Shown here in pieces: positions 19,392-43,280 of a stretch of 64,000 nucleotides of DNA (its first letter is position 1; every line of letters starts with the position of its first letter). Where the stretch lies: positions 62,001-126,000 of the forward strand of contig NZ_CP082922.1 of the NCBI RefSeq assembly GCF_019931675.1, written 5' to 3'. This DNA comes from Nocardioides rotundus. Lineage in GTDB: Bacteria; Actinomycetota; Actinomycetes; Propionibacteriales; Nocardioidaceae. The translations under genes were made by a program, and so were the position numbers. Below the pieces are notes generated by a model. The model did no database searches. It saw nothing but the letters and a program-made list of their open reading frames with translations, and was not told the origin of the DNA.

Positions 19392-20083
19392 CCCGCCGAG
19401 TCGGCGCTAGTTCACCCCGAGTCGGCGCTACTTCACCGCGGCTCCAGGTCCTGCCGGCCGAATCCGGCACCCGCGGGGCGCTCGCCTGGCAGCTGGCCGA
19501 CGAGCAGGCCGAGCCCTGGCCGTGCCTGTCCTCCGCCTCCGTCGGCGGCGGCCTCGGGGCCGCGAGCTGGGTGCTCAACGTGGGCGTGGTGCGGGACTAT
19601 CGCCGTACCGACCTGGAGGCGCACGCCGCCGAAGTCGCGGCCAGCGCCGGCCTGCGTGGTGAGGGTACGGCGCTCCTCACCGCCGCCGACGTGCACCGCG
19701 TCGAGGCCTCCGAGTGCTCCGGCGTCCGCGCCTGGTCGACCGTCGGGGTCAGCCGCCCCACGTGGCCGGCCGACCCCGAGGCCCTTGCCCGCGCCGGCCG
19801 GCGGCTGCCCCCGGGGACGATCAACACCGTCGTGCTGCTGCCGGTGCGGCTCACCCCGAGCGCCCTGATCCAGGCCGCGCTGGTCGTCGCGGAGGCGAAG
19901 GCGCAGGCGTGCGTGGAGTCGGGCCTGCCCGGGACGGGTACGGCGAGCGACGCGGTCGTCCTCGCCTGCGACCCCGCCGGGCCGGTCGAGGACTTCGGCG
20001 GCCCCCGCTCCACCTGGGGCGCTCGGGTCGCGCTATCCGTCCACACCGGTGTCGCCGCCGGGCTGGCGGGCTGGTCGCCATGA
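19388..20083 (+). CDS. cbiZ: Adenosylcobinamide amidohydrolase (CbiZ family)
   Basis: The 231-residue protein matches the CbiZ family, with SSASVGGGLGAASWVLNVGV near residue 40 and the central TAADVHRVEASECSGVRAWSTVG region. CbiZ removes the nucleotide-loop precursor from adenosylcobinamide or pseudocobalamin to give adenosylcobyric acid, so scavenged corrinoids can be rebuilt with another lower ligand. The GTG overlaps the cobQ stop codon. The first 18 codons contain two 21-bp family B repeat units (19398-19439, encoding VGASSPR VGATSPR), so the N terminus appears to have been replaced or extended by a repeat. Confidence 0.85.
   Translation: MTRRVGASSPRVGATSPRLQVLPAESGTRGALAWQLADEQAEPWPCLSSASVGGGLGAASWVLNVGVVRDYRRTDLEAHAAEVAASAGLRGEGTALLTAADVHRVEASECSGVRAWSTVGVSRPTWPADPEALARAGRRLPPGTINTVVLLPVRLTPSALIQAALVVAEAKAQACVESGLPGTGTASDAVVLACDPAGPVEDFGGPRSTWGARVALSVHTGVAAGLAGWSP
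19398..19439 (+). repeat. Family B 21-bp repeat, two units in the cbiZ 5' coding region
   Basis: Two adjacent 21-bp units (19398-19418 and 19419-19439) each begin GAGTCGGCGC and continue TASTTCACCSC. Because 21 is a multiple of three, the units add seven codons each without shifting the frame. Confidence 0.85.
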
Positions 20084-21012
20084 CGACCGTCCTCCGCGAC
20101 CGGGCCGCGCTGGTCGCCGCCGGCCTGCTCCTCGACCGGGCGCTCGGCGAGCCTCCGGCGCGCCTCCACCCCGTTGCCCTCTTCGGCCGCGGGATGACCG
20201 CGGTGGAGGCACGGTTGTGGGCCGACGACCGAGCCCGGGGGGTCGGGTACGCCGCCCTCGGCGTCGCGGCCGGCGCTCTGGCCGGTCGGGTGCTGGGCCG
20301 CGTCCCGGGCGGCCTCGCCCTCGCCGTGGCCGTGGCGGTCGCCGGGCGGATGCTGCGGGAGACCGCCTCCGAGGTGGAGCGCCCCCTCCTGACCGGCGAC
20401 CTGGCCGGTGCCCGGGCCGCGCTCCCGGCGCTCGTCGGCCGCGACCCGAGCGAGCTGGACGAGTCCGGGATCAGCGCGGCGGTCGTCGAGTCGCTGGCGG
20501 AGAACAGCGTGGACGCGGTGATCGCTCCGGCCTGCTGGGCCCTGGTCGCGGGCGCGCCCGGGGACCTTGCGCATCGGGCGGTGAACACGATGGACGCGAT
20601 GGTCGGCCACCGCTCCGCCCGCTACGAGCGCTTCGGCTGGGCGGCCGCGCGCCTCGACGACGTCGCCAACTGGGTGCCCGCCCGAGTCTTCGCCGCCCTG
20701 GTCGCCCTGGTGCGCCCCGGCCGCGCGGCCCGGGTGCGCGCCCTGGTTCACCGCGACGCGAAGGCCCATCCGTCCCCCAACGCCGGGGTCGCCGAGACCG
20801 CGGTGGCCGCGGCCCTCGGTCGCCAGCTCGGCGGCACGCTGCGCTACGGCGACCGGGTCGAGGAGCGCCCACTGCTGGGGGAGGGTCCGCGCCCGACCCC
20901 GGCCGACGTGGCCCGCGCGCGGAGGCTGGTCGACGACGTCGAGCGCGCCGCGGTGGCGCTGCTGTTGCTCGCGGCCCTCGCGGGTCGCCGTACCCCTTGG
21001 AGGAGCCGATGA
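20080..21012 (+). CDS. cobD: Adenosylcobinamide-phosphate synthase
   Basis: The 310-residue membrane protein belongs to the CbiB/CobD family, which attaches aminopropanol (phosphate) to adenosylcobyric acid. Visible signatures are LDRALGEPPARLHPVALFGR at the N terminus, AVVESLAENSVDAVIAPACW and NTMDAMVGHRSARYERFGWAAARLDD. Several hydrophobic helices fit an inner-membrane location. The ATG overlaps the cbiZ stop codon (ATGA), and the cobU start overlaps its own stop codon. The CobC-like decarboxylase at 13895 would supply the aminopropanol phosphate. Confidence 0.93.
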   Translation: MTTVLRDRAALVAAGLLLDRALGEPPARLHPVALFGRGMTAVEARLWADDRARGVGYAALGVAAGALAGRVLGRVPGGLALAVAVAVAGRMLRETASEVERPLLTGDLAGARAALPALVGRDPSELDESGISAAVVESLAENSVDAVIAPACWALVAGAPGDLAHRAVNTMDAMVGHRSARYERFGWAAARLDDVANWVPARVFAALVALVRPGRAARVRALVHRDAKAHPSPNAGVAETAVAAALGRQLGGTLRYGDRVEERPLLGEGPRPTPADVARARRLVDDVERAAVALLLLAALAGRRTPWRSR

Positions 21013-21548
21013 CCCTCACCTTCCTGACCGGCGGCGCGCGCAGCGGCAAGTCGGCGCTGGCGGTGCGCCGGGCGGAGAGGTACGACGGCCCGGTGGTGTT
21101 CGTCGCCACCGCGCACGCGGGTGACGGCGAGATGGCCGACCGGATCGCCCGCCACCGCGCCGAGCGGCCCGCCGGCTGGGGCACCGTCGAGGCGCCGGTC
21201 GACCTGGCCGGAGCGGTCGCGGCCCAGACCGGCGATGCGCTGCTCCTCATCGACTGCCTCTCGCTGTGGGTGGCCAACCTCGGCGGGTTGGAGGAGACCG
21301 AGGAACAGGTGCTCGCGCGCGCCGATGCCGCGCTCGAGGCGATCGCGCGCCGGACCGCCCCGGTGCTGGTGGTGACCAACGAGGTCGGACTCGGCCTGGT
21401 GCCGATGCACCCGGTGGGGCGGGCCTACCGGGACACGCTGGGCCGGGTGAACGCGCGGTTCTCCCGCGCCGCAGACGAGGCGCTGCTGGTGGTCGCGGGC
21501 CGCACCCTGCGACTGGACGACCCCAAGGGGGAGACGAGTGATGAGTGA
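21009..21548 (+). CDS. cobU: Bifunctional adenosylcobinamide kinase/adenosylcobinamide-phosphate guanylyltransferase
   Basis: At 179 residues this is full length for CobU. It has the P-loop GGARSGKS at the N terminus, the RIARHRAERPAGWGTVEAP segment with the guanylylated histidine region, and VTNEVGLGLVP. It phosphorylates adenosylcobinamide and then transfers GMP to give AdoCbi-GDP, the substrate of CobS. It overlaps cobD by 4 bp (ATGA) and cobT by 8 bp. Confidence 0.95.
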   Translation: MTLTFLTGGARSGKSALAVRRAERYDGPVVFVATAHAGDGEMADRIARHRAERPAGWGTVEAPVDLAGAVAAQTGDALLLIDCLSLWVANLGGLEETEEQVLARADAALEAIARRTAPVLVVTNEVGLGLVPMHPVGRAYRDTLGRVNARFSRAADEALLVVAGRTLRLDDPKGETSDE

Positions 21549-22584
21549 CCTGATCGCCGAGACCGTGGCCGCGATCCGCCCCGCCGACGCCGCCGCCCGC
21601 GACGCCGCCGCGGCCGAGATGGGGCAGAAGCTCAAGCCGCCGGGCAGCCTGGGCCGGCTGGAGATGCTGGCGGCGAGGCTGGCCGGCATCCGCGGGGCGG
21701 CCGACCCGGGTACGCCGACCCCGGCCGTCGTCGTCTGCGCCGCCGACCACGGGGTCGCGGCCGACGGGGTGAGCGCCTTCCCCCAGCAGGTGACCGGCCT
21801 GATGGTGGACAGCTTCGCCGCCGGTGGGGCGGCGGTGTGCGTCCTGGCCCGCGAGCAGGGCGCGCGCCTGGTCGTGGCCGACCTAGGCGTGCTGGAGCCG
21901 CGCGACCACCCCGCCGTCCTGGATCGGCGGGTCCGCGCGGGCACCGCCTCGTCCCTCACCGGCCCGGCGATGAGCCGCGAGGAGGCCGAGACGGCTGTCG
22001 GCCACGGCATCGGGATCGTCGAGGAGCTCGTGGCCGACGGGGTCGACCTCGTCGCCTTGGGGGAGATGGGGATCGGGAACACCACTGCGGCGAGCGCGCT
22101 CACCGCGCTGCTGCTGGGGCTGCCGGCGGCCGAGGCGGTCGGGCGCGGGACCGGCCTGGACGACGAGCAGCTGGCGCACAAGGTCGACGTCGTGGACCGG
22201 ATCGTCCGGCTGCACAGCGGGGTGCCGTCCGACCCGCTGGACGCCCTGGCGGCGGTCGGCGGCCTGGAGATCGCCGCCCTCGTCGGGGTGGTCCTCGGCT
22301 GCGCCGCCCACCGCGTGCCCGTGGTCGTCGACGGCTTCATCACCGGCTCGGCCGCGCTCGTGGCCGCCCAGCTCGCCCCCGAGAGCGTCGACGCGATGAT
22401 CGCCGGCCACCGCTCGGTCGAGCCCGGCCACACCGTCCAGCTCAAGGCGCTCGGCCTGGATCCGGTCCTCGACCTGGAGCTGCGGCTGGGCGAGGGCAGC
22501 GGCGCGACGCTCGCCCTGGGGGTGCTCCGCTCCTCGCTGGCGATCCTGTCCGACATGGCGACCTTCGAGAGCATCGGCCTGTGA
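21541..22584 (+). CDS. cobT: Nicotinate-nucleotide--dimethylbenzimidazole phosphoribosyltransferase
   Basis: This 347-residue CobT activates the lower ligand base by making alpha-ribazole phosphate. Family motifs are KPPGSLGRLE near residue 30, VCAADHGVAADGVSAFPQQV, GEMGIGNTTAASAL and the catalytic glutamate region HRSVEPGH. The ATG at 21541 is favoured over a GTG three bases earlier, with GGGGGAGACGAG upstream. It overlaps the end of cobU by 8 bp, and cobS starts in its stop codon. Confidence 0.95.
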   Translation: MSDLIAETVAAIRPADAAARDAAAAEMGQKLKPPGSLGRLEMLAARLAGIRGAADPGTPTPAVVVCAADHGVAADGVSAFPQQVTGLMVDSFAAGGAAVCVLAREQGARLVVADLGVLEPRDHPAVLDRRVRAGTASSLTGPAMSREEAETAVGHGIGIVEELVADGVDLVALGEMGIGNTTAASALTALLLGLPAAEAVGRGTGLDDEQLAHKVDVVDRIVRLHSGVPSDPLDALAAVGGLEIAALVGVVLGCAAHRVPVVVDGFITGSAALVAAQLAPESVDAMIAGHRSVEPGHTVQLKALGLDPVLDLELRLGEGSGATLALGVLRSSLAILSDMATFESIGL

Positions 22585-23351
22585 GGTCGCTGCTGCGGGG
22601 GCCGCTGGACGCGCTAGGCGTGCTCACCCGGGTGCCCGTTCCGCCCGGCCGCGGTGCCCCGAATCTCGCGGCCGCCGCCCCGTGGTTCCCGGCCGTCGGG
22701 GCCCTGGTCGGGGTGGTCGCCGGGCTGGTCGGCGTCGTGGCTGCCGGTGTCTGGGGGCCGTTCGTCGCCGCGATCGTGCTCGTGCTGGCCGACGTGCTCC
22801 TCACCGGCGCGCTCCACCTCGACGGCCTCGCCGACCTCGCCGACGCGACCGGCGGGCACACCCGCGAGCGGCGTCTGGCGATCATGAAGGACCACGCCGT
22901 GGGGGTGTATGGCGCCTCCGCGCTGGTCCTCGACCTGCTGCTCCGGGTCGCCCTGCTCGCGGTCGTCCTGACCCTGCCGGGTGCGTGGGCGGTGGCCTGC
23001 GTCGCGGCCGTGTGGGCGCTCTCCCGGGCGGCGATGCTGCCGCCGGCGCTGCTCCTGCCCTACGCCCGCCCTGAGGGGACCGGCCGGTCGGTCATCGAGG
23101 GGATCACCCCGCTGCGCTGCCTCGCCGGCCTCGTCGTCGCCCTGCTGCTCGCGGTCGTGCTGCTCGGGGTGGTACCGGTCGGGCAGGCCGCCGCGGTCGT
23201 CGGGGCCGTCCTCGGGGCGGCCGTGGGCGGGCTCCTCCCCGCCGCCTGGGCGGCCGCCCGGCTGGGCGGAGCCACCGGCGACGTCCTCGGCGCCGTGGCC
23301 GAGTGCGCCCTGGTCGGGGCGCTCCTCGGGCTGACCGCCACTCTGGGCTGA
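22581..23351 (+). CDS. cobS: Adenosylcobinamide-GDP ribazoletransferase (cobalamin synthase)
   Basis: The 256-residue integral membrane enzyme joins AdoCbi-GDP to alpha-ribazole in the last assembly step. Signatures include FLTRVPVP-like GVLTRVPVPPG at the N terminus, GALHLDGLADLADATGG and RERRLAIMKDHAVGVYGA, plus about six transmembrane segments. The GTG overlaps the cobT stop codon by 4 bp. It is the last gene of the riboswitch-controlled operon. Confidence 0.95.
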   Translation: MRSLLRGPLDALGVLTRVPVPPGRGAPNLAAAAPWFPAVGALVGVVAGLVGVVAAGVWGPFVAAIVLVLADVLLTGALHLDGLADLADATGGHTRERRLAIMKDHAVGVYGASALVLDLLLRVALLAVVLTLPGAWAVACVAAVWALSRAAMLPPALLLPYARPEGTGRSVIEGITPLRCLAGLVVALLLAVVLLGVVPVGQAAAVVGAVLGAAVGGLLPAAWAAARLGGATGDVLGAVAECALVGALLGLTATLG

Positions 23352-23356
23352 ACCGG

Positions 23357-23388
23357 CGGCGCCGCGAGGGAACTCCCCGTCGGCGCCG
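23357..23388 (+). terminator. Possible weak terminator after cobS
   Basis: CGGCGCCG (23357-23364) repeats as CGGCGCCG (23381-23388). The sequence is self-complementary and could form an 8-bp stem with a 16-nt loop just after the cobS stop codon. The evidence is thin. Confidence 0.3.
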
Positions 23389-23445
23389 TCCGTTACCGTC
23401 GCTGTGCCCGCTCCCGTCGGGCCGCGCGAACCGGAGGTGCCCTGC

Positions 23446-26130
23446 GTGAGCTTCGTCCCCCTGACCGGCCCGGCCACGCTGCACACGGCCGAGCCACCGC
23501 GGGACGGGGTCGTGGAGTTCACCGACCACCGGCGCACCGTCGACCTGCCGATCCGGGCCGCGCTGCCGGTCCTGGCCAAGGCCCACGGGCACGACGACCT
23601 GCACCCCAGCGTCCGGCTGCTCGCCGGCGCCGCCCACCTCGGCCTGCGCCTGGTCGCCTCCGGCAGGTTCGGCCCCGACGCCGAGCACACCTCCTGGCAG
23701 GTGGAGGGGATGTCCCCGGACGACGAGGAGCGGGTGGTCCTGCTCGCTCGAGCCCGCGCGCACGACGATCTCGACGTGGCCACCGCCGAGGGGCTGGTGC
23801 GGGCGATGCTCGCCGCGGCGATCGACTCGATGCCGCGGACGCCGCCCACGACTCGGAAGGCGCCGCGCGGAGCGGGCCGCGATGCTCCGGAGCGGGCGTC
23901 CGGCGACTTCCACGACCGCCTCCAGCGCCGGCTCGAGCAGGCGGAGGCGTCCCGCCGCCGGGAGGAGCTGCCCCAGCTGGTGCGGATCAGCCTGCGGGTC
24001 GAGGCCGACGAGGAGGAGCTGGTGGCGGGCGCCGTACGCCTCGTCCTGCAGGTCCACGACGAGAGCGACCCGCTGCACGTCGCCGACGCGGCGCTGCTGT
24101 GGACCGAGGACGACGGGCACGGCTTCGGGCCGCGGGCGCGCACGCACGCGCTGCTCGGGCTGCGCGCCGCGGCGGAGGCCTGGCCGGTGCTCGACCGCTT
24201 CCTCGAGCTGCGCGTGCCCGACCAGCTGACCCTCGACACCGACGAGCTCGTCTCCCTGCTCGACGAGGGCGCCGCCGCGCTGCAGGCCCGCGGGGTCGAG
24301 CTGCTGTGGCCGCGCAGCCTCGGGCGGGACCTGACGACCCGCACCGTGCTGGAGTACCGCCCTCCCGGCGGTCGCGAGGAGCCCCTGCAGGAGCCGATGT
24401 TCGGCACCGACGCGCTCTTCTCCTTCGACTGGCAGGTCGCCCTGCACGGCGACCCGCTGACCCCCGACGAGATGGACCGTCTCGCCGCGTCGGCCTCGCC
24501 GGTGATCCGGCTGCGCGACCAGTGGATGGTGGTCGACCCGTCGGTCGTACGCCGGGCCAAGAAGCGCCTGGTCCGCACGATCAAGCCCGCGCAGGCGCTG
24601 GCGGCGACGCTCACCGGGGTCGTCGAGGTCGACGAGACCGACACCGAGGTCGTGGTCGGCGCGACCCTGGAGAAGGTCCGCGAGCAGATCCGGACCGCGG
24701 CCGAGCGCGAGCCCGTGCCGCCGCCCGCGGGCCTGCGGGCGACGCTGCGCGACTACCAGGCGCACGGGCTCACCTGGCTCGCCACGCTGACCGACCTCGG
24801 CCTCGGGCCGTGCCTGGCCGACGACATGGGGCTGGGCAAGACGATCACCCTGATCGCGCTGCACCTGCATCGCCGCGAGCGCGGTCACACCGGGCCGACG
24901 CTGGTTGTGTGCCCGGCCTCGCTGCTGGGCAACTGGGAGGCGGAGTTCGCGCGGTTCGCCCCGTCGGTTCCGGTACGCCGCTTCCACGGCACCTCGCGGT
25001 CGCTGGACTCGCTGGGCGACGGGGTCGTGCTGACGACGTACGGCACGATGCGCCGCTCCGCCGCCGAGCTGGCCGGCGTCCCGTGGGACCTGGTCGTCGC
25101 CGACGAGGCGCAGCACGTGAAGAATCCGCAGTCCTCGACAGCGCGGGCGCTGCGCACCATCGGGTCGGCCGCCCGGGTCGCGCTGACCGGCACGCCGGTG
25201 GAGAACAACCTGACCGAGCTGTGGGCGATCCTGGACTGGCTGACCCCGGGGCTGCTCGGCTCGCGCAACGCCTTCCGCAAGGCGTGGGCGGCGCCGATCG
25301 AGGCCGGCGTCGACGCGGCGAAGGCGCGCCAGTTCGCCGACCTGATCGGCCCGTTCCTGCTGCGCCGCCGCAAGAGCGACCCCGGGGTGGCGCCGGAGCT
25401 CCCGGAGAAGACCGAGACCGACCACCTGCTCTCGCTGACCCGCGAGCAGGTGGTGCTCTACGAGTCGTTCGTGCGCGACCTGATGGACCGGATCGAGCGC
25501 TCCGACCCCGACGCGCGCCGCGGCCTGGTGCTCAAGCTGCTCACCGGCCTCAAGCAGATCTGCAACCACCCCGCGCACTTCCTCAAGCAGTCCACGCCCC
25601 GGGTCACCGGCCGCTCGGAGAAGGTCGACCTGCTCGACGAGCTGATCGGGACGGTGCTGGCCGAGGACGGCGCGGTGCTGGTGTTCACCCAGTACGTCGA
25701 GATGGCGCGGCTGATCGAGCAGCACCTCGCCGCCACCGGCGTGCCGCACCAGCTGCTCCACGGCTCCACCCCCGTGCGGCAGCGCGAGCAGATGGTGGCC
25801 CGCTTCCAGGCAGGCGAGGTGCCGGTCTTCCTGCTCTCGCTCAAGGCCGGCGGCACCGGGCTCAACCTGACCCGCGCCGACCACGTCGTGCACGTGGACC
25901 GCTGGTGGAACCCGGCCGTGGAGGACCAGGCCACCGATCGTGCGCACCGGATCGGCCAGACCCGCCCGGTGCAGGTGCACCGGCTGGTCACCGTCGGCAC
26001 GATCGAGCAGCGGATCGGGGAGATGCTGACCCGCAAGCGGTCGCTGGCCGACGCGGTGCTCGGGCGGGGCGAGGCGGCGCTGACCGAGCTCTCCGACGCC
26101 GAGCTGCGCGACCTGGTGACGCTGCGATGA
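23446..26130 (+). CDS. SNF2-family DEAD/DEAH box helicase
   Basis: This 894-residue protein has an N-terminal SNF2-associated region (about 1-450) and a C-terminal Swi2/Snf2 motor. Motifs seen are DDMGLGKT (Walker A), VVADEAQHVKNP (motif II), LTGTPVENN (motif III), LSLKAGGTGLNL (motif V) and DRAHRIGQ (motif VI). Such proteins translocate on double-stranded DNA. The role of the bacterial HelZ-like group is poorly known. I prefer the GTG at 23446, which has GGAGGT 7 bases upstream, to the GTG at 23404. It overlaps the SWIM gene by 4 bp, and this pairing is common in actinobacteria. Confidence 0.92.
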   Translation: MSFVPLTGPATLHTAEPPRDGVVEFTDHRRTVDLPIRAALPVLAKAHGHDDLHPSVRLLAGAAHLGLRLVASGRFGPDAEHTSWQVEGMSPDDEERVVLLARARAHDDLDVATAEGLVRAMLAAAIDSMPRTPPTTRKAPRGAGRDAPERASGDFHDRLQRRLEQAEASRRREELPQLVRISLRVEADEEELVAGAVRLVLQVHDESDPLHVADAALLWTEDDGHGFGPRARTHALLGLRAAAEAWPVLDRFLELRVPDQLTLDTDELVSLLDEGAAALQARGVELLWPRSLGRDLTTRTVLEYRPPGGREEPLQEPMFGTDALFSFDWQVALHGDPLTPDEMDRLAASASPVIRLRDQWMVVDPSVVRRAKKRLVRTIKPAQALAATLTGVVEVDETDTEVVVGATLEKVREQIRTAAEREPVPPPAGLRATLRDYQAHGLTWLATLTDLGLGPCLADDMGLGKTITLIALHLHRRERGHTGPTLVVCPASLLGNWEAEFARFAPSVPVRRFHGTSRSLDSLGDGVVLTTYGTMRRSAAELAGVPWDLVVADEAQHVKNPQSSTARALRTIGSAARVALTGTPVENNLTELWAILDWLTPGLLGSRNAFRKAWAAPIEAGVDAAKARQFADLIGPFLLRRRKSDPGVAPELPEKTETDHLLSLTREQVVLYESFVRDLMDRIERSDPDARRGLVLKLLTGLKQICNHPAHFLKQSTPRVTGRSEKVDLLDELIGTVLAEDGAVLVFTQYVEMARLIEQHLAATGVPHQLLHGSTPVRQREQMVARFQAGEVPVFLLSLKAGGTGLNLTRADHVVHVDRWWNPAVEDQATDRAHRIGQTRPVQVHRLVTVGTIEQRIGEMLTRKRSLADAVLGRGEAALTELSDAELRDLVTLR

Positions 26131-26876: not shown

Positions 26877-26882
26877 GGCTGT

Positions 26883-27499: not shown

Positions 27500-27583
27500 G
27501 AGTCGGCGCCAATTCACCGCGAGTCGGCGCTTGTTGACGCCCAGTCGGCGCCAATTGACCCCGAGTCGGCGCTTGTCGACGCC
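27500..27583 (+). repeat. Family B 21-bp repeat, four units between the two TetR operators
   Basis: Units at 27500-27520, 27521-27541, 27542-27562 and 27563-27583 each begin SAGTCGGCGC. Units alternate between a CCAATTSACCSC form and a CTTGTYGACGCC form, giving a 42-bp higher-order period. The array fills most of the space between the operators. Confidence 0.9.
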
Positions 27584-27599: not shown

Positions 27600-27617
27600 G
27601 GTTAATGATCGCTAACC
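27600..27617. promoter_or_regulatory. TetR operator 2, overlapping the accD promoter
   Basis: GGTTAATGATCGCTAACC is an 18-bp inverted repeat of the same form as operator 1. Its right arm TAACC continues into TAACCT, a plausible -10 for the carboxylase operon, so bound repressor would block RNA polymerase directly. Confidence 0.75.
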
Positions 27618-27646
27618 TAGAGGCGCACCGACGAGCAGGAGGACCC

Positions 27647-29263
27647 GTGAGCGAGACACCCCTGGACCTGCGCAGCCTGGCCGACCAGTTGCGCGAGCGG
27701 ATGGACCGGGTCCGCCAGGGCGGCTCGGAGAGCGCCCGCGCCAAGCACACCGGCCGCGGCAAGCTCCTGGCCCGCGACCGGGTCGACCGGTTGCTGGACC
27801 CCGGCAGCCCGTTCCTCGAGCTCGCGCCGCTGGCGGCGTACGGGATGTACGGCAAGGACGCCGAGGATGTGTACGCCGTCCCGTCGGCGGGCGTCGTCGC
27901 CGGCATCGGGCTGGTCTCGGGGCGGCCGGTGATGGTGGTCGCCAACGACGCGACGGTCAAGGGCGGCACCTACTACCCGATGACGGTCAAGAAGCACCTG
28001 CGCGCTCAGACGGTGGCTGCGGAGAACCGGCTGCCGTGCGTCTACCTCGTCGACTCCGGCGGTGCCTTCCTGCCGCTGCAGGACGAGGTCTTCCCCGACA
28101 GGGAGCACTTCGGCCGGATCTTCTTCAACCAGGCGAACATGTCTGCCGCGGGGATCCCGCAGATCGCCAGCGTGATGGGCTCGTGCACCGCGGGTGGCGC
28201 GTATGTCCCCGCGATGAGCGACGAGACCGTGATCGTGCGCAACCAGGGGACGATCTTCCTCGGTGGCCCGCCGCTGGTGAAGGCGGCGACCGGCGAGGTC
28301 GTCACGGCCGAGGAGCTCGGCGGGGGCGACGTACACGCACGGGTCTCCGGCGTGGTGGACCACCTCGCCGACGACGACGCCCACGCCCTGCGGATCGTCC
28401 GCTCGGTCCTGGACACCCTCCCGGCGCGAACAAGCGCCGACTCGGCGTCAACTGGCGCCGACTGGGGGTCAACAAGCGCCGACTCGGCGGTGGAGGAGCC
28501 GCACGAGCCGCCGGAGACCCTCTACGACGTGGTGCCGGCCGACACCCGGACGCCGTACGACGTCCGCGAGGTGATCCGCCGGGTCGTCGACGGCAGCCGG
28601 TTCCACGAGTTCAAGAAGCTGTACGGCGAGACCCTGGTCTGCGGCTTCGCCCGGATCTGGGGGCACGAGGTCGGGATCGTCGCCAACAACGGCATCCTGT
28701 TCAGCGAGTCCGCGCTCAAGGGGGCGCACTTCGTCGAGCTGTGCAACCAGCGCAAGATCCCGCTGGTCTTCCTGCAGAACATCACCGGCTTCATGGTCGG
28801 CAAGGAGTACGAGAACAAGGGGATCGCCCGGGACGGGGCCAAGCTGGTCACCGCGGTCGCCTGCAGCGTGGTCCCGAAGTACACCGTCGTCATCGGCGGC
28901 TCCTTCGGCGCCGGCAACTACGGGATGAACGGGCGCGCCTACGACCCCCGCTTCCTGTGGATGTGGCCGAACGCGCGGATCTCGGTGATGGGCGGCGAGC
29001 AGGCCGCCGGGGTGCTCGCCACAGTCCGCCGCGACGGCCTCGAGGCCGCCGGCGAGGAGTGGTCCGCCGAGGACGAGGAGGCCTTCAAGGCGCCGATCCG
29101 CGAGCAGTACGAGACCCAGGGCAACCCCTACTACGCCTCCGCCCGGCTCTGGGACGACGGCATCATCGACCCCGCCGACACCCGGCGGGTCCTCGGCATG
29201 GCGCTCTCGGTGGCCGCACCGCTGCCGATCCCCGATCCCTCCTACGGCATCTTCCGGATGTGA
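27647..29263 (+). CDS. Acyl-CoA carboxylase beta (carboxyltransferase) subunit, probably methylcrotonyl-CoA carboxylase
   Basis: The 538-residue carboxyltransferase transfers CO2 from biotin to an acyl-CoA. The N half ([28 protein letters not shown]) and C half ([37 protein letters not shown]) are typical of methylcrotonyl-CoA or branched acyl-CoA carboxylases. The order TetR, beta, alpha, HMG-CoA lyase points to leucine degradation. A GTG start follows an AGGAGG site. Residues about 260-280 ([20 protein letters not shown]) are encoded by three inverted family B units inserted in the linker between the two crotonase-like halves. Confidence 0.92.
28423..28485 (-). repeat. Family B 21-bp repeat, three inverted units inside the carboxylase beta gene
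   Basis: Units at 28423-28443, 28444-28464 and 28465-28485 read GAGTCGGCGC or CAGTCGGCGC on the minus strand. They keep the carboxylase frame and encode 21 Ser/Thr/Ala/Asp-rich residues in an interdomain linker. Confidence 0.9.
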
Positions 29264-35980: not shown

Positions 35981-36005
35981 GGGGCTTCCTTCGTGGGGGG
36001 AGGTC

Positions 36006-36872: not shown

Positions 36873-36878
36873 GCGCCC

Positions 36879-36884
36879 AGTATG
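36879..36884 (-). promoter_or_regulatory. -10 element (CATACT) of a leaderless start
   Basis: On the minus strand CATACT lies 6 bases before the glycosylase GTG. Confidence 0.45.
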
Positions 36885-36920
36885 CCGGGCCGACCGAAGC
36901 CGGGGCCTTGACCGGCGCGC

Positions 36921-36926
36921 CAGAAT
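36921..36926 (+). promoter_or_regulatory. -10 element (CAGAAT) of a leaderless start
   Basis: CAGAAT lies 5 bases before the ATG at 36932. It is back to back with the glycosylase promoter. Confidence 0.4.
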
Positions 36927-36931
36927 TGACC

Positions 36932-37195
36932 ATGGCCGACGTCCACCCGCTCTCACCGACGGGGTCCGTGTTCCTGGACTCCCGCGGCTCGGACCGGGCC
37001 CTGCGGGTGACCTGGCACAGCGAGGCCGGCGTCGTCGTGCTGTCGCTGTGGCGCGGCAACGTGTGCGCCGGGTCGTTCCGGCTCCCCGCCGATGAGGTGC
37101 CGGACCTCATCGACCTGCTCCGCGCCGGGCTGGACTCCACCTACCGGCACGCGCCGACCCGGGGGCCGGGTCAGGCCCGACCCGAGTCCGCCTGA
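36932..37195 (+). CDS. Conserved hypothetical protein (87 residues)
   Basis: This small soluble protein contains LRVTWHSEAGVVVLSLWRGN followed by VCAGSFRLPADEVPDLIDLL. I have seen this pattern in many actinobacterial hypothetical proteins but know no function. The predicted structure is a short beta-rich domain plus helix. The ATG at 36932 is chosen because it follows a -10-like element. An upstream in-frame ATG at 36908 would overlap that promoter. Its 3' end is one base from the convergent LysE gene. Confidence 0.7.
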   Translation: MADVHPLSPTGSVFLDSRGSDRALRVTWHSEAGVVVLSLWRGNVCAGSFRLPADEVPDLIDLLRAGLDSTYRHAPTRGPGQARPESA

Positions 37196-37196
37196 G

Positions 37197-37820
37197 TCAC
37201 TCGCGGACCAGCATGGTCGCGCCGAGGCCGAGCATCATCGTGCCGCCGGTGGCGCCGAGCGCGTCCAGTCGGGCCGGCCGTCGAGCGAACCAGTCGCGTG
37301 CCTGCCCGGCCAGCAGCGCCCACACGCTGTCGGAGGCGACCGCCATCACCGCGAAGGCCAGCCCGAGGAGCGCGGTCTGCGCCCCGACCGGGCCCGCGGG
37401 GTCGGTGAACTGCGGCAGGAACGCGACGAAGAAGACGACCGTCTTGGGGTTGGTGACGCCCACGGTGAAGCCGATCCGGATCGGGTGACCGCGTCGCACC
37501 GGCACCCCGCCCTCCATGGACAGGCGCGCGTCGGCGCGGTGCCGGATCGCCTGGACGCCCAGCCATACGACGTACAACGCGCCGCAGACCTTCACAGCGG
37601 TGTACGCCGTCGCGCTCGCGGCCACGATCGTGCCGAGGCCGACCGCCACCAGGAGCGCCTGCACGACCAGGCCGAGCGCGTTCCCGACGACGGAGAGGAT
37701 GGCCTCGTCGCGGCCCACCGTCAGGGCACGGCCGATGGTGAACAGCAGGCTCGGGCCGGGCACCTGGATGAACAGGATCGAGGCGACGGCGAACGCGAGC
37801 CACTGGTTCGTGCTGGGCAT
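37197..37820 (-). CDS. LysE/RhtB family amino-acid exporter
   Basis: The 207-residue six-helix membrane protein has the family N terminus (FIQVPGPSLLFTIGRAL), the motif VGNALGLVVQALLVAVGLG and GVTNPKTVVFFVAFLPQFTD. It exports amino acids or homoserine lactone-like compounds with proton exchange. The substrate is unknown. No LysG-type regulator is adjacent. Confidence 0.9.
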   Translation of the reverse strand: MPSTNQWLAFAVASILFIQVPGPSLLFTIGRALTVGRDEAILSVVGNALGLVVQALLVAVGLGTIVAASATAYTAVKVCGALYVVWLGVQAIRHRADARLSMEGGVPVRRGHPIRIGFTVGVTNPKTVVFFVAFLPQFTDPAGPVGAQTALLGLAFAVMAVASDSVWALLAGQARDWFARRPARLDALGATGGTMMLGLGATMLVRE

Positions 37821-37911
37821 GGGGCCAGTGTGCGACCGGGCGGGGTCGGTCCGCCAATCCGGGCGAATCGCCGGATATCGGCGAATCTAAGGGAATCCCT
37901 AGAGTGCCGGA

Positions 37912-37917
37912 TAGCCT
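37912..37917 (+). promoter_or_regulatory. -10 element (TAGCCT) of a leaderless start
   Basis: TAGCCT lies 7 bases before the ATG at 37925. The preceding 60 bases are locally AT-rich (ATATCGGCGAATCTAAGG). Confidence 0.5.
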
Positions 37918-37924
37918 GCGATCC

Positions 37925-39130
37925 ATGGATCCGATCCGCAATCCCTACGCACCCGGCGCCGGCCAGCGCCCGCCCGAGCTCGCCGGCCGCGCCGAGCAGT
38001 TGGGCGCCTTCTCCGTGGTGCTGGAGCGGGTCAGCCGCGGCCGGCCGGAGCGCTCGCTGGTGCTGACCGGCCTGCGCGGGGTGGGCAAGACGGTGCTGCT
38101 CAACACTCTGCGCTCGTCGGCGGTACGACGCCAGTGGGGGACCGGCAAGCTCGAGGCGCGCCCCGACCAGGAGCTGCGGCGGCCGCTGGCCAGCGCCGCC
38201 CACCAGGCGGTGCGCGAGCTCGGCCACCGCGACGAGGAGTCGGTCGCGCACGTCCTCGGCGTCGTCCGCTCCTTCGCCCAGCGCGCGGCCGGGCCGAACG
38301 CCAAGCTGCGCGAGCAGTGGAACCCCGGCATCGACGCCCCGCCGGTGCGCGGGCGTGCCGACTCCGGCGACATCGAGATCGACCTGGTCGAGCTCTTCAC
38401 CGACCTCGGCGGGCTGGCCGCCGACCTCGGCAAGGGGATCGGCATCTTCATGGACGAGATGCAGGACCTCGGGCCGGACGACGTCTCCGCGCTCTGCGCC
38501 GCGTGCCACGAGATGAGCCAGGCGGGGCTGCCGGTGATCGTCGTGGGTGCCGGCCTGCCGCACCTGCCCGCGGTGCTGAGCGCGAGCAAGTCCTACTCCG
38601 AGCGGCTGTTCTCCTACCAGCGCATCGATCGGCTCTCCCGCGACGCCGCCGACCACGCGCTCAGCCTGCCGGCCGAGGAGGAGGACGCGGCCTTCGACGA
38701 GGACGCGCTGGCCACGATGTACGACGTCACCGGCGGCTACCCCTACTTCATCCAGGCCTACGGGAAGGCGGTCTGGGACCGCGCCCCGCGCTCGCCGATC
38801 ACCGGCGAGGACGTGGCCGTCGCGGCCCCCGAGGCCGAGAACGAGCTGGCGGTCGGCTTCTTCGGCTCCCGCTACGACCGGGCCACGCCGGGGGAGCGGG
38901 AGTACCTCCGGGCGATGGCCGACGCCGCGCTCGAGCTGGCCGACGACGACAAGGACGCCGTGGAGTCGGTGCCCACGTCCGCCGTGGCCGCCGTACTCGG
39001 GAAGAAGCCGCAGTCGCTCTCGCCCGCGCGCGACGCGCTGCTGAAGAAGGGCTTGATCTACGCCTCCGAGCGCGGCCGGATCGCCTTCACCGTCCCGCAC
39101 TTCGGGAAGTACCTGCGCTCGCGGGGGTGA
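37925..39130 (+). CDS. AAA ATP-binding protein with C-terminal winged helix
   Basis: The 401-residue P-loop protein has GLRGVGKTVLLN (Walker A, about residue 45) and IFMDEMQDLG (Walker B, about residue 175), then VIVVGAGLPHLP and GGYPYFIQAYGKAVW. The C terminus looks like a winged-helix DNA-binding domain (GKKPQSLSPARDALLKKGLI). It resembles archaeal-type AAA ATPases and STAND-like ATPases common in actinobacteria. The function is unknown. It is leaderless and sits at the border of the lower-GC patch that follows. Confidence 0.82.
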   Translation: MDPIRNPYAPGAGQRPPELAGRAEQLGAFSVVLERVSRGRPERSLVLTGLRGVGKTVLLNTLRSSAVRRQWGTGKLEARPDQELRRPLASAAHQAVRELGHRDEESVAHVLGVVRSFAQRAAGPNAKLREQWNPGIDAPPVRGRADSGDIEIDLVELFTDLGGLAADLGKGIGIFMDEMQDLGPDDVSALCAACHEMSQAGLPVIVVGAGLPHLPAVLSASKSYSERLFSYQRIDRLSRDAADHALSLPAEEEDAAFDEDALATMYDVTGGYPYFIQAYGKAVWDRAPRSPITGEDVAVAAPEAENELAVGFFGSRYDRATPGEREYLRAMADAALELADDDKDAVESVPTSAVAAVLGKKPQSLSPARDALLKKGLIYASERGRIAFTVPHFGKYLRSRG

Positions 39131-39313
39131 ACTGGCTGCCCGCGAAGCGGGTGACTGCGACATGGGTGCGCAAACTGCGACTGCGTGAGGAGACTCGTCG
39201 GGTCGGACTGAGCTGTGAGACCCGTTGTCGCCATCGAGCTGTGACGGGTAAAGCCGGCGCCGTAGATCTTCCGCAGGGCAGCCGGGGCAGCCGCCGTTGC
39301 ACGATTCGGCGCG

Positions 39314-39478
39314 CTACTTCTCCTTGCGGACGCCTTTGAAGCTGCCGCCGCTCTTCTTCGCCTCGATGAACTGCCCGGTCGAGGAACTCCGCTTCATCCA
39401 GGTCCCTGATGTCGTCCTGGTCTGGGTGCGGCCTGTGACCGCGCCGCGTCTTGATCCGTGACCGGTGTTCTTGGCCAT
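39314..39478 (-). CDS. Small basic conserved protein (54 residues)
   Basis: The product starts MAKNTGHGSRRGAVTGRTQT and ends GGSFKGVRKEK. It is strongly basic, with many Thr, Ser and Gly. A textbook GGAGG lies 5 bases before the ATG, and the stop codon is TAG. I have met this pattern in short actinobacterial hypothetical proteins near mobile or accessory regions. No function is known. It is the first gene of the lower-GC patch and precedes no other gene on its strand closely. Confidence 0.75.
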   Translation of the reverse strand: MAKNTGHGSRRGAVTGRTQTRTTSGTWMKRSSSTGQFIEAKKSGGSFKGVRKEK

Positions 39479-39499
39479 GTGTGCCTCCTTGTCTCGATC

Positions 39500-40891
39500 T
39501 TACGGCGTGCTGGGTGCATCTGGTCGGCCTCGGCCGGTGTCCTTGGGCGTGTCGAACTCACCTCGGATGAACAGACCTGAGGAGATCACGATCAACACGA
39601 CGAGTGCGGTTGTGAGGCAGACAGTACTAATGAGCCGCAGGCGAGAACCGAGGGTCGAGGGCTCGCGGACGAGGAGGACTGATGCCGCAAGAGCGGCCGG
39701 GCCACCGACGATGGCCAGCGTTTGCAGGTCGGTCGGACCCTCTATCAGCAAGGCCACCGACAGGAGTGTGAGGAGAGCTGCGACAAGGTAGGGAACTATC
39801 TGGAGGCGGCGCAGTAGCCGCAGATCAAACGACAACCGGATCCGGTAGTCCCGGTCCGGGTCGTGGGCGTAGAAGGCGCGACTCTGAGCGTCCTGCCGAG
39901 ACTGGAACGCGCCGTACGCGAACTCGTCGCTTCCGGGTCTCAGGGCCTTGAAGGTGCCGATCCGAAGACTAGCGTCCGCCACTTTCAACGTTACGTGATT
40001 GGTGCGTGCGTCCGCGACTACGAGTTCCAATGTCGCTGTGTTGCGCCACCATGACAAGGGCAAGCTCTGTCGCTCTGAGTACTTGATGAGGAAGGGCTCG
40101 TCGAGGGGCACCTTCATCGCGACCATCATGTCGTAGGAGTTCCCATAGTCGGCCAACACGACAAGAAACTCCTCCGCCGCGTTCGGCGGGTGCGTCTGTG
40201 CCTGTTCGTCCAGGGTGGCCACGAGTTCCGCGTATTCGTCAAGCGTGGCAGTGGCTTGTTCATCGGTGGTGATGGTTCCGTCCGCGAAGAGCTCCGGCAG
40301 CACAAGGGCGGGATTCTCGGGCGCCGAGTAGCCGCGGAACACGTCAATTCGTCGCCGGAGTACGTCGCGGCAGACGTCGCCTGCGTCCCGCCAACGCGTC
40401 AGCGTCTCCTCGGGTACGGCGCGGCCGAGGCCGGCCTTGAGATACTCCTCAAACGTGATTGCCTTGACGTCGGTCAGCAGCTCCCCGGTGAACCCACAAA
40501 CCGCGGCGAGTAACGCATGCAGATCGTCACTGATCGATTGTCCGCACGCGCGTGCCAATTCTCGGAGAAGCCGAGCCTCTCGGTCGGCGATCTCGATCCG
40601 TGGCAGGAGCCACGCTTGGCCCTCCGGACCCGACACGTCAAAATCGAGCAGGGGCCCACGTCGGATCGGGGCCACGTAGAGCCCGAGCAGCGCGTGGGTC
40701 GTCTCCTCCGGTACCTCAACGCCCAGGTGGGCCCGCAATGGCGCCACCTGCAGAGACCGGCGCCGCAAACAGGAGGTCGCGGTGTCCACGGTGATCTCCT
40801 CGACGGCTCGAACCCTCCAGTCCAAGGGATTCGCGAGCAGCGTGACCGTTACATGCTCATCGTCGACCAGGTTCAACAGTTGCTCTGACAC
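39500..40891 (-). CDS. Unrecognised 463-residue protein with three C-terminal transmembrane helices
   Basis: I do not recognise this protein. The first 330 residues are soluble and acidic, with VTVTLLANPLDWRVRAVEEI near the start and many Glu/Asp/Leu helices. A Trp/Arg motif (LSWWRNTATLELVVADARTN) follows. Residues about 365-440 contain three hydrophobic segments (IVPYLVAALLTLLSVALLI, TLAIVGGPAALAASVLLV, TVCLTTALVVLIVISSGLFI), and a short polar tail ends the protein. The GTG at 40891 has a GGAG site 8 bases upstream, so it is preferred to an upstream start. GC content is visibly lower than in neighbours, which suggests recent transfer. The soluble part probably faces the cytoplasm. Confidence 0.7.
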   Translation of the reverse strand: MSEQLLNLVDDEHVTVTLLANPLDWRVRAVEEITVDTATSCLRRRSLQVAPLRAHLGVEVPEETTHALLGLYVAPIRRGPLLDFDVSGPEGQAWLLPRIEIADREARLLRELARACGQSISDDLHALLAAVCGFTGELLTDVKAITFEEYLKAGLGRAVPEETLTRWRDAGDVCRDVLRRRIDVFRGYSAPENPALVLPELFADGTITTDEQATATLDEYAELVATLDEQAQTHPPNAAEEFLVVLADYGNSYDMMVAMKVPLDEPFLIKYSERQSLPLSWWRNTATLELVVADARTNHVTLKVADASLRIGTFKALRPGSDEFAYGAFQSRQDAQSRAFYAHDPDRDYRIRLSFDLRLLRRLQIVPYLVAALLTLLSVALLIEGPTDLQTLAIVGGPAALAASVLLVREPSTLGSRLRLISTVCLTTALVVLIVISSGLFIRGEFDTPKDTGRGRPDAPSTP

Positions 40892-41158
40892 TGGCTCGTC
40901 TCCTCGTGCGCTTGCGTCGGTCCTGCTTTCGCCTGCGCGCAGCCTAGGAGGTGCCGCCGACGTCGAGCTGGTAAAACGTGGCCGACGGCCTTTCACCCAC
41001 GCCCTTGCGCTCCGACGAGCCGGGTCCTCGATGAGGGGCTTTCGCTTCGGCGCTGATTCAGAACCGGTGTTTCAGGTTCCGTGGTTGAGTCGCGTCTTAG
41101 GTGCCAGCTCCAGCCGTGGCAAAGATCCCAGATCTGTTGTCGCGGACCCGGCTAGGGC

Positions 41159-41563
41159 TCAGACGGGCCGACGTACCAGGGCGGCGAGCCCGACGAGAAC
41201 CAGCAGCCCGAGTCCGCCGAAGACGAGGAGGAGCCCGAGGCCCAGCACCCACAGGCCGGTGTTGTCGGACCCGGCGGCCTCGACGGCCCAGGGGATCGCG
41301 AAGCCGATCGTGGCCGCGACCGGCATCAGCACGATCGCGGCGATCCGGCGGGTGAACAGGTAGCCGGCGACGGCGCCGAGGGCGACGGTCGCGCCACAGC
41401 CGACGACCTGCCAGGGCCGGTAGGGACCCTGCGGCACCCCGTCGACCTCGTAGTACGTGTGGTCCCAGCCCAGCCAGGCGAACCACATCGCGGCGGCCCA
41501 GACCGCCACCGCGAGGGTCACCAGACCGATCCGGCCGAGGCCGTTGTGCTCGTGGGAAGGCAT
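41159..41563 (-). CDS. Four-helix membrane protein, unknown function
   Basis: The 134-residue product has about four hydrophobic segments (IGLVTLAVAVWAAAMWFAWL, VGCGATVALGAVAGYLF, IAAIVLMPVAATIGFAIPWA, GLWVLGLGLLLVFGGLGLLV), with a short extracytoplasmic loop HTYYEVDGVPQGPYRPW after the first helix. I know of similar actinobacterial hypothetical proteins but no function. The ATG at 41563 is used because upstream codons are arginine-rich and non-hydrophobic. Confidence 0.65.
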   Translation of the reverse strand: MPSHEHNGLGRIGLVTLAVAVWAAAMWFAWLGWDHTYYEVDGVPQGPYRPWQVVGCGATVALGAVAGYLFTRRIAAIVLMPVAATIGFAIPWAVEAAGSDNTGLWVLGLGLLLVFGGLGLLVLVGLAALVRRPV

Positions 41564-41623
41564 GCCTCCAGTGTTCCTGCCTCGGCGCCGCCCCGCATGA
41601 GCCCCGGTGCTCAACTCCCCGGG

Positions 41624-41629
41624 CACAAT
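41624..41629 (+). promoter_or_regulatory. -10 element (CACAAT) of a leaderless start
   Basis: CACAAT is followed by 6 bases and the GTG at 41636. The same arrangement precedes the sulfotransferase at 32215. Confidence 0.45.
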
Positions 41630-41635
41630 GGCCCA

Positions 41636-41998
41636 GTGCCCGACCTAATGCAGCAGATCCTGATCGGCCTGGCCCTCCTCTTCGCCCTCGCCGCTCTGGG
41701 CCACCTGATCGCCGACCGGGTGCCGGGCGGACTGATGCTGATCGGCGTCTTCGTGCTGACCATCGCGCTGCTCGTCGGCCTCTTCGTCGGCATCGTCGCG
41801 GTCGCCCAGCCCGGCAACGACGTGAACAAGCTGAGCTACCTCGGGTACCTGGGCATCGCCGTGGTCACGCCGCCGGCCGCCTCGTTGTGGGCGGCCGAGG
41901 AGCGCACCCGTGCCGGTACGGCGGTCTACGTCGCCGCTGGCCTGCTGGTGGCCTTCCTGCTCCTGCGCGCCGGACAGGTGTGGAGTGCCGGTGCCTGA
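41636..41998 (+). CDS. Four-helix membrane protein, unknown function
   Basis: This 120-residue product is almost entirely hydrophobic: LMQQILIGLALLFALAALGH, GLMLIGVFVLTIALLVGLFV, LGYLGIAVVTPPAASLWAAEE and VYVAAGLLVAFLLLRAGQVW. It has no domain I can name. It overlaps the next membrane-protein gene by 8 bp, so the two are co-translated and may form a hetero-oligomer. Confidence 0.65.
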   Translation: MPDLMQQILIGLALLFALAALGHLIADRVPGGLMLIGVFVLTIALLVGLFVGIVAVAQPGNDVNKLSYLGYLGIAVVTPPAASLWAAEERTRAGTAVYVAAGLLVAFLLLRAGQVWSAGA

Positions 41999-42419
41999 GG
42001 CCGCCCGCACCGACCGCGGCTGGGGCCGGCTGCTGGTGCTCGTCTACGCCGTCTTCGCGGTCGCCGCCACCGGCCGGTCGACGGTGCAGCTCGCGCAGAA
42101 CGCGGACGAGGCGCCGCTGGCCTATGCCCTCTCCGCCTTCGCCGCCGTGGTCTACCTGGTCGCCACCTGGACCCTGGCCCGACCCGGCCTCCGCGCCACC
42201 CGGGTCGCGTGGGCGGCGGTCGGGGTCGAGCTGGCCGGCGTACTCCTCATCGGCACGCTCAGCCTGTGGCACCCCGAGGTGCTGGGCGACGACACGGTCT
42301 GGTCGAGGTACGGCGCGAGGTACGGCTACGTGCCGCTGGTGCTGCCGGTCGCCGGGCTGGCCTGGTTGGCGCACACCCGTCGGGGCCTTGCCAGCCGCCC
42401 GGGTCGGCGCGTTGACTGA
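41991..42419 (+). CDS. Membrane protein, unknown function, coupled to the preceding gene
   Basis: The 142-residue product has about four transmembrane segments (LLVLVYAVFAVAATGRS, YALSAFAAVVYLVATWTLA, RVAWAAVGVELAGVLLIGTL, YVPLVLPVAGLAWLAHTR) and a conserved-looking polar loop LWHPEVLGDDTVWSRYGARY before the last helix. The start at 41991 has GGAG 5 bases upstream. A GTG at 41985 is the alternative. No function is known. Confidence 0.65.
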   Translation: MPEAARTDRGWGRLLVLVYAVFAVAATGRSTVQLAQNADEAPLAYALSAFAAVVYLVATWTLARPGLRATRVAWAAVGVELAGVLLIGTLSLWHPEVLGDDTVWSRYGARYGYVPLVLPVAGLAWLAHTRRGLASRPGRRVD

Positions 42420-42424
42420 TCGGC

Positions 42425-42769
42425 ATGACCGACGGCATCGACCCCACGGCAGCCCCCTCCGGGCCCGGCTGCGCCGACTGCGAGCAGACCGGCGGCTGGT
42501 GGGTGCACCTGCGTCGCTGCGCCCAGTGCGGCCACGTCGGGTGCTGCGACTCCAGCCCCTCCCAGCACGCGACCGCGCACTACCACGACGCCGGACACCC
42601 GATCGTGCAGAGCTTCGAGCCGGGGGAGGACTGGTTCTACGACTACGGCACGGAGAAGGGCGTGCTCGGGCCGCGGCTCGCCGACCCGCAGAGCCATCCC
42701 GAGGATCAGCCCGTGCCCGGGCCGGCCGGTCGCGTGCCGGACGACTGGCGCGACCACATCCACATGTGA
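42425..42769 (+). CDS. UBP-type zinc finger domain protein
   Basis: The 114-residue protein is mostly one ZnF-UBP domain, with CADCEQTGGWWVHLRRCAQC followed by GHVGCCDSSPSQHATAHYHDAGHP, the Cys/His pattern that in eukaryotes binds the ubiquitin C terminus. Bacteria of this group lack ubiquitin, although some have Pup or ubiquitin-like proteins, so the ligand is unknown. These stand-alone domains are common in actinobacteria. It begins 5 bases after the previous gene. Confidence 0.9.
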   Translation: MTDGIDPTAAPSGPGCADCEQTGGWWVHLRRCAQCGHVGCCDSSPSQHATAHYHDAGHPIVQSFEPGEDWFYDYGTEKGVLGPRLADPQSHPEDQPVPGPAGRVPDDWRDHIHM

Positions 42770-42773
42770 GCGG

Positions 42774-43205
42774 TCAGTCGCGGTACTTCACGATGCTGTA
42801 GATCAGCAGACCGAGCGCGATGAAGGCCGAGATGATCAGGCTCGACCCGGTCCCCCAGCCGCCGGGGAGCCACCACTTCTCGTGGATCGGCCACCACTCG
42901 GGCGCCGGCGGCTGCAGGCCCCAGACGACGCCTACGCCGATCATGAACAGCACGCCGGACGCCGACATCGCGATCCGCGGGATCGTGGCGACACCCTGAC
43001 GTGCCGCCTCCTTGGCGGCCTTCTCGACCGGGCGCATGTGCCGCTCGGCCCACTCGTACTGCTGGGAGAGGATCGCCAGGCCGGCGAAGAGCATGAGCAG
43101 CCCGGGCCCGGGCAGGATCAGCGCGGCGATGCCCGCGGCGACCAGCGTCCAGCCCGCGACCTCGAGCGCGACCCGCTTGCCGTGTCTGCCGCCAGGGATG
43201 CTCAC
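42774..43205 (-). CDS. PGPGW (TIGR02611) family membrane protein
   Basis: The 143-residue product carries LEVAGWTLVAAGIAALILPGPGLLMLFAGLAILSQQYEWAERH-type family features, seen here as LILPGPGLLMLFAGLAILSQ and YEWAERHMRPVEKA. Two further C-terminal helices follow. These proteins are found across actinobacteria with no known role. The GTG at 43205 is preferred to the ATG at 43238, which would lie against the family B repeat. Confidence 0.8.
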   Translation of the reverse strand: MSIPGGRHGKRVALEVAGWTLVAAGIAALILPGPGLLMLFAGLAILSQQYEWAERHMRPVEKAAKEAARQGVATIPRIAMSASGVLFMIGVGVVWGLQPPAPEWWPIHEKWWLPGGWGTGSSLIISAFIALGLLIYSIVKYRD

Positions 43206-43238
43206 GGGGAAACCGTGCCATATCCCGCCAAGACACAC

Positions 43239-43280
43239 ATGCCCGCAGTGCGCCGACTCGCGGTGAAGTGGCGCCGAGTC
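43239..43280 (-). repeat. Family B 21-bp repeat, two units between convergent or tandem genes
   Basis: On the minus strand the unit at 43260-43280 reads GACTCGGCGC then CACTTCACCGC, and the unit at 43239-43259 reads GAGTCGGCGC then ACTGCGGGCAT, the second half being degenerate. The array fills the entire gap between the NAD-binding gene and the PGPGW gene and touches the stop codon of the former. Confidence 0.8.

Follow-up and report, generated by a model that had tools for sequence, protein, structure and literature searches.

Short tandem repeats recur in the window, the 64,000-nucleotide stretch analyzed here (positions 62001-126000 of the 4.09-Mb single contig of the soil bacterium Nocardioides rotundus). 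The initial annotation of the window described 21-bp repeats at four loci, and all four were confirmed in the sequence. We consider it about 60% probable that these arrays are dispersed, gene-less copies of a two-part system composed of tandem palindromic arms and an orphan AbiEi-type gene. Beyond that annotation, arms often lie directly behind stop codons, neighboring arms mostly face inward, and one specific gene is bracketed by arms elsewhere in the genome. The anatomy and location bias of the arrays are direct observations, as are the bracketing of this gene in nine genomes and the tendency of dispersed repeats to match the set that flanks it.

Cluster and unit counts refer to 622 kb of the genome, comprising the window and 40 stretches fetched around listed pattern matches; clusters outside these stretches may be missing. 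A profile trained on the 21-bp units themselves and run over this set gave 204 matches, compared with 0 in the reversed sequence, and the matches grouped into 66 clusters. Because 12 palindromic centers of compact clusters were scored on both strands, the matches correspond to ∼192 distinct units. Genome-wide, a core-12N-core pattern with up to 2 mismatches matched 161 times (3 times when reversed), and a single-unit pattern with up to 1 mismatch matched 195 times (once when reversed). The bare 10-mer with up to 1 mismatch was not enriched in the window (60 matches versus 59.3 expected); the nonrandom feature is the 21-bp spacing rather than the 10-mer, and the idea of a DNA uptake sequence was rejected on this count.

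The unit consensus is [GC]AGTCGGCGC, followed by approximately NNNTTSACSCC, with profile positions 11-13 and 19 variable. Together with the bases preceding the unit, the core GCGCCGAGTCGGCGC forms a 15-bp palindrome with an odd center base. Arms hold one to six tandem units. Fifteen of the 66 clusters are compact inverted hairpins, laid out as plus units, mostly a palindromic center near GAGTCGGCGTYAATTRACGCCGACTC, and then minus units; the other 51 are single-direction arms. Neighboring clusters less than 5 kb apart (n = 19) were plus-minus, and hence inward facing, in 12 cases, minus-minus in 3, plus-plus in 2, and minus-plus in 2, an inward-facing excess with a P value of 5e-4 against an expectation of one-quarter. 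The 66 clusters, the varying arm lengths, and the absence of the accD copies from all 17 relatives aligned support the initial description of a family that is dispersed, present in either orientation, and expanded to different degrees. By eye, the two arms of compact clusters often make opposite choices between TTCAC and TTGAC (e.g., genome positions 2457505, 3708505, and 3740520), and the variable spacer positions mostly show A/T or C/G swaps.

Within the genus, a two-unit pattern with up to 2 mismatches was found in 4 of 147 genomes, including N. rotundus and one noise-like case, and a looser pattern with up to 1 mismatch was found in 8 of 215, again including N. rotundus. In a collection of 84,980 species, from which N. 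rotundus was possibly left out, the exact compact center matched no stretch, and a looser two-unit pattern matched Nocardioides cremeus alone (5 stretches). Three relatives (G128, G013, and G155) carry related yet distinct units. When 20 genes flanking arrays in G128 were compared with those flanking arrays in N. rotundus, two matched, one weakly (∼33% identity) and one clearly. The clear match is the AbiEi-like gene, which is bracketed by arms in both species (52% identity over 227 residues).

In N. rotundus, this orphan gene lies outside the window (genome positions 1223189-1224395), between two inward-facing arms. All eight homologs among the matches listed were included, and they come from eight of the 16 genomes searched; the G128 locus was first found through its arrays and the other seven through the gene alone. 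At all nine loci read (N. rotundus plus eight homologs), the gene is flanked on both sides by repeats in inverted orientation. The repeat length is 21 bp in N. rotundus and G128, 22 bp in G013, G155, G064, and G096, 26 bp in G109, and 31 bp in G172 and G054, and the gene-flanking repeats are mostly lineage specific. Each of the seven further genomes has tandem repeats on at least one side, with a single unit on some sides (e.g., upstream in G054 and downstream in G172). At 9 of 9 loci, the upstream and downstream sets are inverses of each other, and the 9-mers shared between the flank strings, which were picked by eye, were inverted and never direct. One gene is called between the arms of N. 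rotundus, and only a short distance separates the AbiEi-like gene from its downstream repeats at all nine loci. No AbiEii toxin gene was present between the arms at the loci read; AbiEii was not searched for elsewhere. In N. rotundus, the bracketed gene separates uppS from the conserved gene that follows. These two neighbors are 26 bp apart in G187 and 28 bp apart in G173, where the bracketed gene is absent, and 54 bp apart in G088; in other genomes, the gap is larger and filled differently, or the region is rearranged.

Twenty loci holding homologs of three other accessory genes served as controls (all 9 GNAT, all 5 AraC, and 6 of 10 SMR places); they represent 20 of 28 listed-or-usable places, with 24 places listed in all. 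Inverted sharing between the two flanks exceeded all 300 two-base-block shuffles at seven of the eight non-N. rotundus loci and at none of the 20 controls (Fisher P = 7e-6), although three of the seven passed narrowly (13 versus 10, 15 versus 14, and 12 versus 11, locus versus shuffles). Tandem arrays with a period of 18-34 were found on at least one side at 7/8 of these loci and on both sides at 4/8, compared with 2/20 controls, and one of the two array-bearing controls (L263 of G109) carries G109's own 26-bp unit. The actinobacterial DnaA-box consensus is YYVTCCACA. A site fitting this consensus is found upstream of the AbiEi-like gene at 8/8 non-N. rotundus loci and at 0/20 controls (Fisher P = 3e-7); it had been spotted before the test was run. 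Such a site also precedes the N. rotundus gene, and among the 51 single arms of this genome, the arm before the AbiEi-like gene is the sole one with a DnaA-box-like site within 150 bp.

The eight homologs are 43-50% identical to the N. rotundus protein, with D237, E248, H255, D263, and other residues invariant. At E ≤ 0.01, PADLOC AbiEi models matched all nine proteins, whereas the Pfam families AbiEi_4 and REase_MTES_1575 matched seven and eight of nine, respectively. A winged-helix domain is followed by a C-terminal part, for which most homologs give a weak match to a Vsr-like restriction endonuclease fold; the MTES_1575 restriction endonuclease is described as having a Vsr-family fold (PMC3710099). 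No convincing relative was found among solved structures. Pattern matches to the protein in viral contigs numbered 39, none of them confirmed as a relative; no relative was confirmed in phages either, and plasmid records gave two weak partial matches. A phage or plasmid origin was rejected, as the two-unit repeat pattern was absent from viral contigs and no protein relative was confirmed there. Among the open-licence papers listed on AbiEi, DUF559, or MTES_1575 proteins in connection with repeats, mobile elements, or Nocardioides, on Nocardioides repeats, and on DnaA boxes with an endonuclease and palindromes, none described the pairing seen here.

Correspondence between dispersed and gene-flanking repeats was scored in a 9-by-9 table, in which the gene-flanking arrays of each genome, as k-mer sets, were compared with other loci of every genome. 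The own-genome diagonal exceeded expectation (permutation P = 0.0002), and for the five genomes with loci not chosen for arrays, the own-genome pairing was the best of all 120 permutations. With exceptions, dispersed repeats tend to match the gene-flanking set of their own genome. For example, the accD and SMR loci of G109 carry its 26-bp unit, the G172 unit is found behind uppS, and the G064 unit is found behind miaB.

These results suggest a REPtron-like unit with a nonhomologous, nuclease-like partner; binding, cleavage, and movement are steps that we infer. The inverted repeats to which AbiEi antitoxins bind are 23 bp long and are bound two or four together (PMC7319586), and binding of the 21- to 31-bp arms by the AbiEi-like protein is therefore plausible. 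In such a mechanism, the AbiEi domain would bind the repeat units, and the nuclease part would nick or cut at them, opening the DNA for copying or conversion. Arms could then be copied or homogenized elsewhere through repair or template switching. The survivors are those at sites where an insert does little harm: immediately after a stop codon, in the space separating convergent genes, or in a protein linker, the reading frame of which a 21-bp unit preserves. Gene-flanking and dispersed copies of one lineage would thereby change together. More tentatively, and with the odds against it, an AbiEi/Vsr-type nuclease under a replication signal (the DnaA box) might maintain and spread its own tandem palindromic sites, which would make it a REPtron that evolved independently of HUH transposases and a class of bacterial selfish element, and would turn some orphan AbiEi "antitoxins" into repeat-mobilizing enzymes.

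Several observations weigh against the two-part system. The nuclease match is weak (one printed score was 19.9 bits against a cutoff of 38.2, and the best member reached E = 6e-7), and the N. rotundus protein gave no nuclease-family match at E ≤ 1. Inverted arms are present; the target site duplication that would mark a miniature inverted-repeat (MITE) or classical transposon was not seen by eye in the flanks, and no near-identical empty site was seen among the genomes compared. In G013, G155, G064, and G096, the AbiEi-like gene has the same neighbor on its upstream side, so the gene itself need not move. One locus (L230) did not exceed its shuffles (10 versus 12) despite tandem arrays on both sides. 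In the k-mer comparison, G054 had practically no dispersed copies in 16 kb, G155 tied with G013, G013 was better matched to G155, G172 tied with G128, and the rows of N. rotundus, G096, and G064 led narrowly for their own sets. Finally, arms of N. rotundus also bracket genes other than the AbiEi-like gene.

For most dispersed palindromes other than those associated with RAYTs, no partner is known. The pairing in nine genomes of one genus supplies a candidate partner protein for such repeats and a candidate substrate for a group of orphan AbiEi-like proteins. Coevolution of repeat and enzyme becomes testable through swapped cognate and noncognate pairs, and the in-frame arrays show a route by which short linkers may enter housekeeping enzymes.

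Placement relative to genes, which were called with a simple home-made gene caller, bears on a different explanation, namely, that the arms act at gene ends as RNA elements of use to the host (two-way hairpin terminators, mRNA stabilizers, or ribosome-stalling structures resembling REPs near stop codons) and that the AbiEi-like gene merely sits there or is regulated by them. Fifty-two of the 66 clusters are intergenic (28 in tandem, 20 in convergent, and 4 in divergent gaps), with fewer clusters than expected in divergent gaps (P = 8e-5) and slightly more in convergent gaps (P = 0.012). For 32 of the 63 intergenic arms, no more than 20 bp separate the outer end from the stop codon of the gene that reads into the arm, compared with 6.1% expected from random placement, and in G128, 11 of 15 arms lie within 12 bp of a sense stop codon. 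The outer flanks of N. rotundus arms are pyrimidine rich (65% versus 50%; C, 51%; G, 21%), a bias that is weaker in G128 (57%). The two compact forms folded have a stability well beyond that of shuffles (z = −9.3 and −12.1). All of this would suit an RNA element. However, six single-direction arms fold weakly in the unit sense (z = −0.5 to −2.1; their opposite strand, where folded, gave −2.8 and −3.1), 14 of the 66 clusters lie within open reading frames (ORFs), and the exact unit is unmatched in 143/147 and 207/215 congeners, which may have other units. The bracketing of one gene in nine genomes would also go unexplained, and we regard this explanation as unlikely, though not negligible. Rfam gave no match within the window.

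The arrays within ORFs encode ESAPVDG/ESALVDR- or STSADSG-like residues. In-frame arrays are present in housekeeping ORFs for AccD (by Pfam and alignment) and for MiaB-, RsmB-, and TreY-like proteins, the last three named by reading the sequence. MiaB was also aligned, and the relatives translated in frame have a shorter segment at the position of the array (other alignment rows not counted).

A further explanation holds that the gene is a passenger and that the arrays are spread by other machinery, such as replication slippage or gene conversion, and tolerate gene insertion. Arms of N. rotundus do bracket AraC- and ArsR-type regulators (by Pfam) and an SMR-like pair (by reading), and 12 of 19 neighboring clusters within 5 kb face inward; against this, homologs of the AraC, SMR, and GNAT genes elsewhere are unbracketed (0/20 by inverted sharing), compared with 9/9 for the AbiEi-like gene, which leaves the passenger explanation improbable. 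The generalization that inward-facing pairs are all mobile gene cassettes suits the AbiEi-like gene and perhaps the AraC gene and SMR-like pair. It was not extended further, because the pair at 146762/149879 does not behave as a single block in relatives. Inward-facing arms also surround the rubredoxin domain of a desaturase/hydroxylase-rubredoxin fusion (genome positions 50095-50464) and the C-terminal part of an LUD-domain/ferredoxin protein (3555703-3556335). An IS5-like element (named by reading), ∼88% identical to two G013 copies, is present at genome positions 335597-336568 and near 994863/995870; it appears to have entered the spacer of an array at CTAG, making arrays targets of insertion sequences. 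Highly improbable is the proposal that the repeats are operators through which the AbiEi-like protein regulates many genes, with sites and protein coevolving as a regulon: AbiEi proteins do bind their own promoter, at inverted repeats (PMC7319586), and the repeats tend to track the gene, but just 4 of 52 intergenic clusters lie in divergent gaps, arms are largely behind stops or in coding sequence rather than in promoters, and they stand on both sides of the gene.

Among known systems, the closest in layout are the REP sequences, which are described as palindromic, present in >100 copies, paired in inverted orientation, and found mostly behind genes, between convergent or same-direction genes (PMC2817692, PMC3116915, PMC3733652), close to stop codons (PMC3733652, PMC12306157); RAYT genes are described as always flanked by two inverted REPs (PMC2817692). 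The N. rotundus arrays share the short dispersed palindromes in >100 copies, the inverted pairs, the stop-codon habitat, and a gene flanked by two inverted family repeats, although the protein is different. They differ in consisting, like the gene-flanking repeats of the other eight genomes, of tandem arms (21- to 31-bp units across the nine genomes), in having no constant GTAG/CGTC foot in the N. rotundus unit, and in their association with an AbiEi-type nuclease-like protein and a DnaA-box-like site. The linkage to a RAYT transposase raised by the initial annotation did not hold: the Y1 transposase family (PF01797) was matched in 0 of 10 genomes and in 5 of 14 control genomes, and a RAYT mobilizer was rejected. 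Rickettsia palindromic elements are described as palindromic DNA in frame within unrelated housekeeping genes (PMC10969869, PMC2996958), as are the arrays within ORFs here; they are, however, ∼150 bp long with a conserved peptide, whereas the units here are 21 bp, mostly outside genes, and have an associated gene. AbiE type IV toxin-antitoxin systems likewise combine an AbiEi-type protein with inverted repeats, but here there is no toxin gene between the arms, the C-terminal part is Vsr-like, and repeats are also dispersed. PARCEL elements, described as palindromic tandem coding repeats spread in the genome and as protein-domain repeats largely of membrane proteins (PMC2996958), resemble the arrays in being palindromic, tandem, and genome spread; the repeats here are mostly noncoding.

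Within the window, the arrays and the two genes that they touch are as follows (window coordinates).

19388-20083, plus strand: cbiZ-like gene (PF01955) with putative start GTG 19388 and repeats at its 5' end.
19398-19439, plus strand: arm of 2 units, starting 6 nt past the TGA (19389-19391) of the upstream ORF.
27500-27583, plus strand: arm of 4 units upstream of accD, within the divergent gap toward a putative TetR gene, forming an inward-facing pair with 28423-28485.
27605-29263, plus strand: accD-type carboxyltransferase gene (PF01039, E = 7e-155), starting at ATG 27605 or GTG 27647.
28423-28485, minus strand: arm of 3 units, in frame in accD, where it falls in the linker joining the two carboxyltransferase halves.
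43250-43280, minus strand: degenerate arm, with a full unit at 43260-43280 and a terminal core at 43250-43259.

The initial identification of the carboxyltransferase agrees with the Pfam match. The linker that contains the arm is ∼11 residues shorter in most of the 17 aligned relatives. Several relatives hold other repeats at about the same place in the gap before accD. An origin of the N-terminal half of AccD as a foreign module is not claimed; trees of the N- and C-terminal halves differ but without clear support. The identity of cbiZ stood, and the described N-terminal repeats hold if the putative start at GTG 19388 is used, in which case they read RVGASSP RVGATSP. A synteny search of the cbiZ region returned matches to the upstream gene only and none spanning the repeats. 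The degenerate arm lies at the 3' end of a minus-strand ORF called at 43279-43920; the two copies originally counted at 43239-43280 were slightly generous, since one is a full unit and the second is a bare terminal core. The frame neutrality attributed to the 21-bp length seems to be coincidental, given that several relatives have equivalent repeats with periods of 22, 26, and 31 bp.

Other repeats are also present in the window. Two inward-facing tandem arms of 31-bp repeats, with the same layout, occupy 6152-6267 (plus strand) and 6319-6491 (minus strand), starting ∼9 nt past a TGA stop (6141-6143). A regular expression for these repeats found no other copy in the 622 kb, and they may represent another such system. 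Positions 8026-8065 hold a 21-bp repeat of a different kind, GACAGGCTCGACCACCGAAGG; single copies of a 15-mer taken from it are present in five other stretches fetched from the N. rotundus genome.

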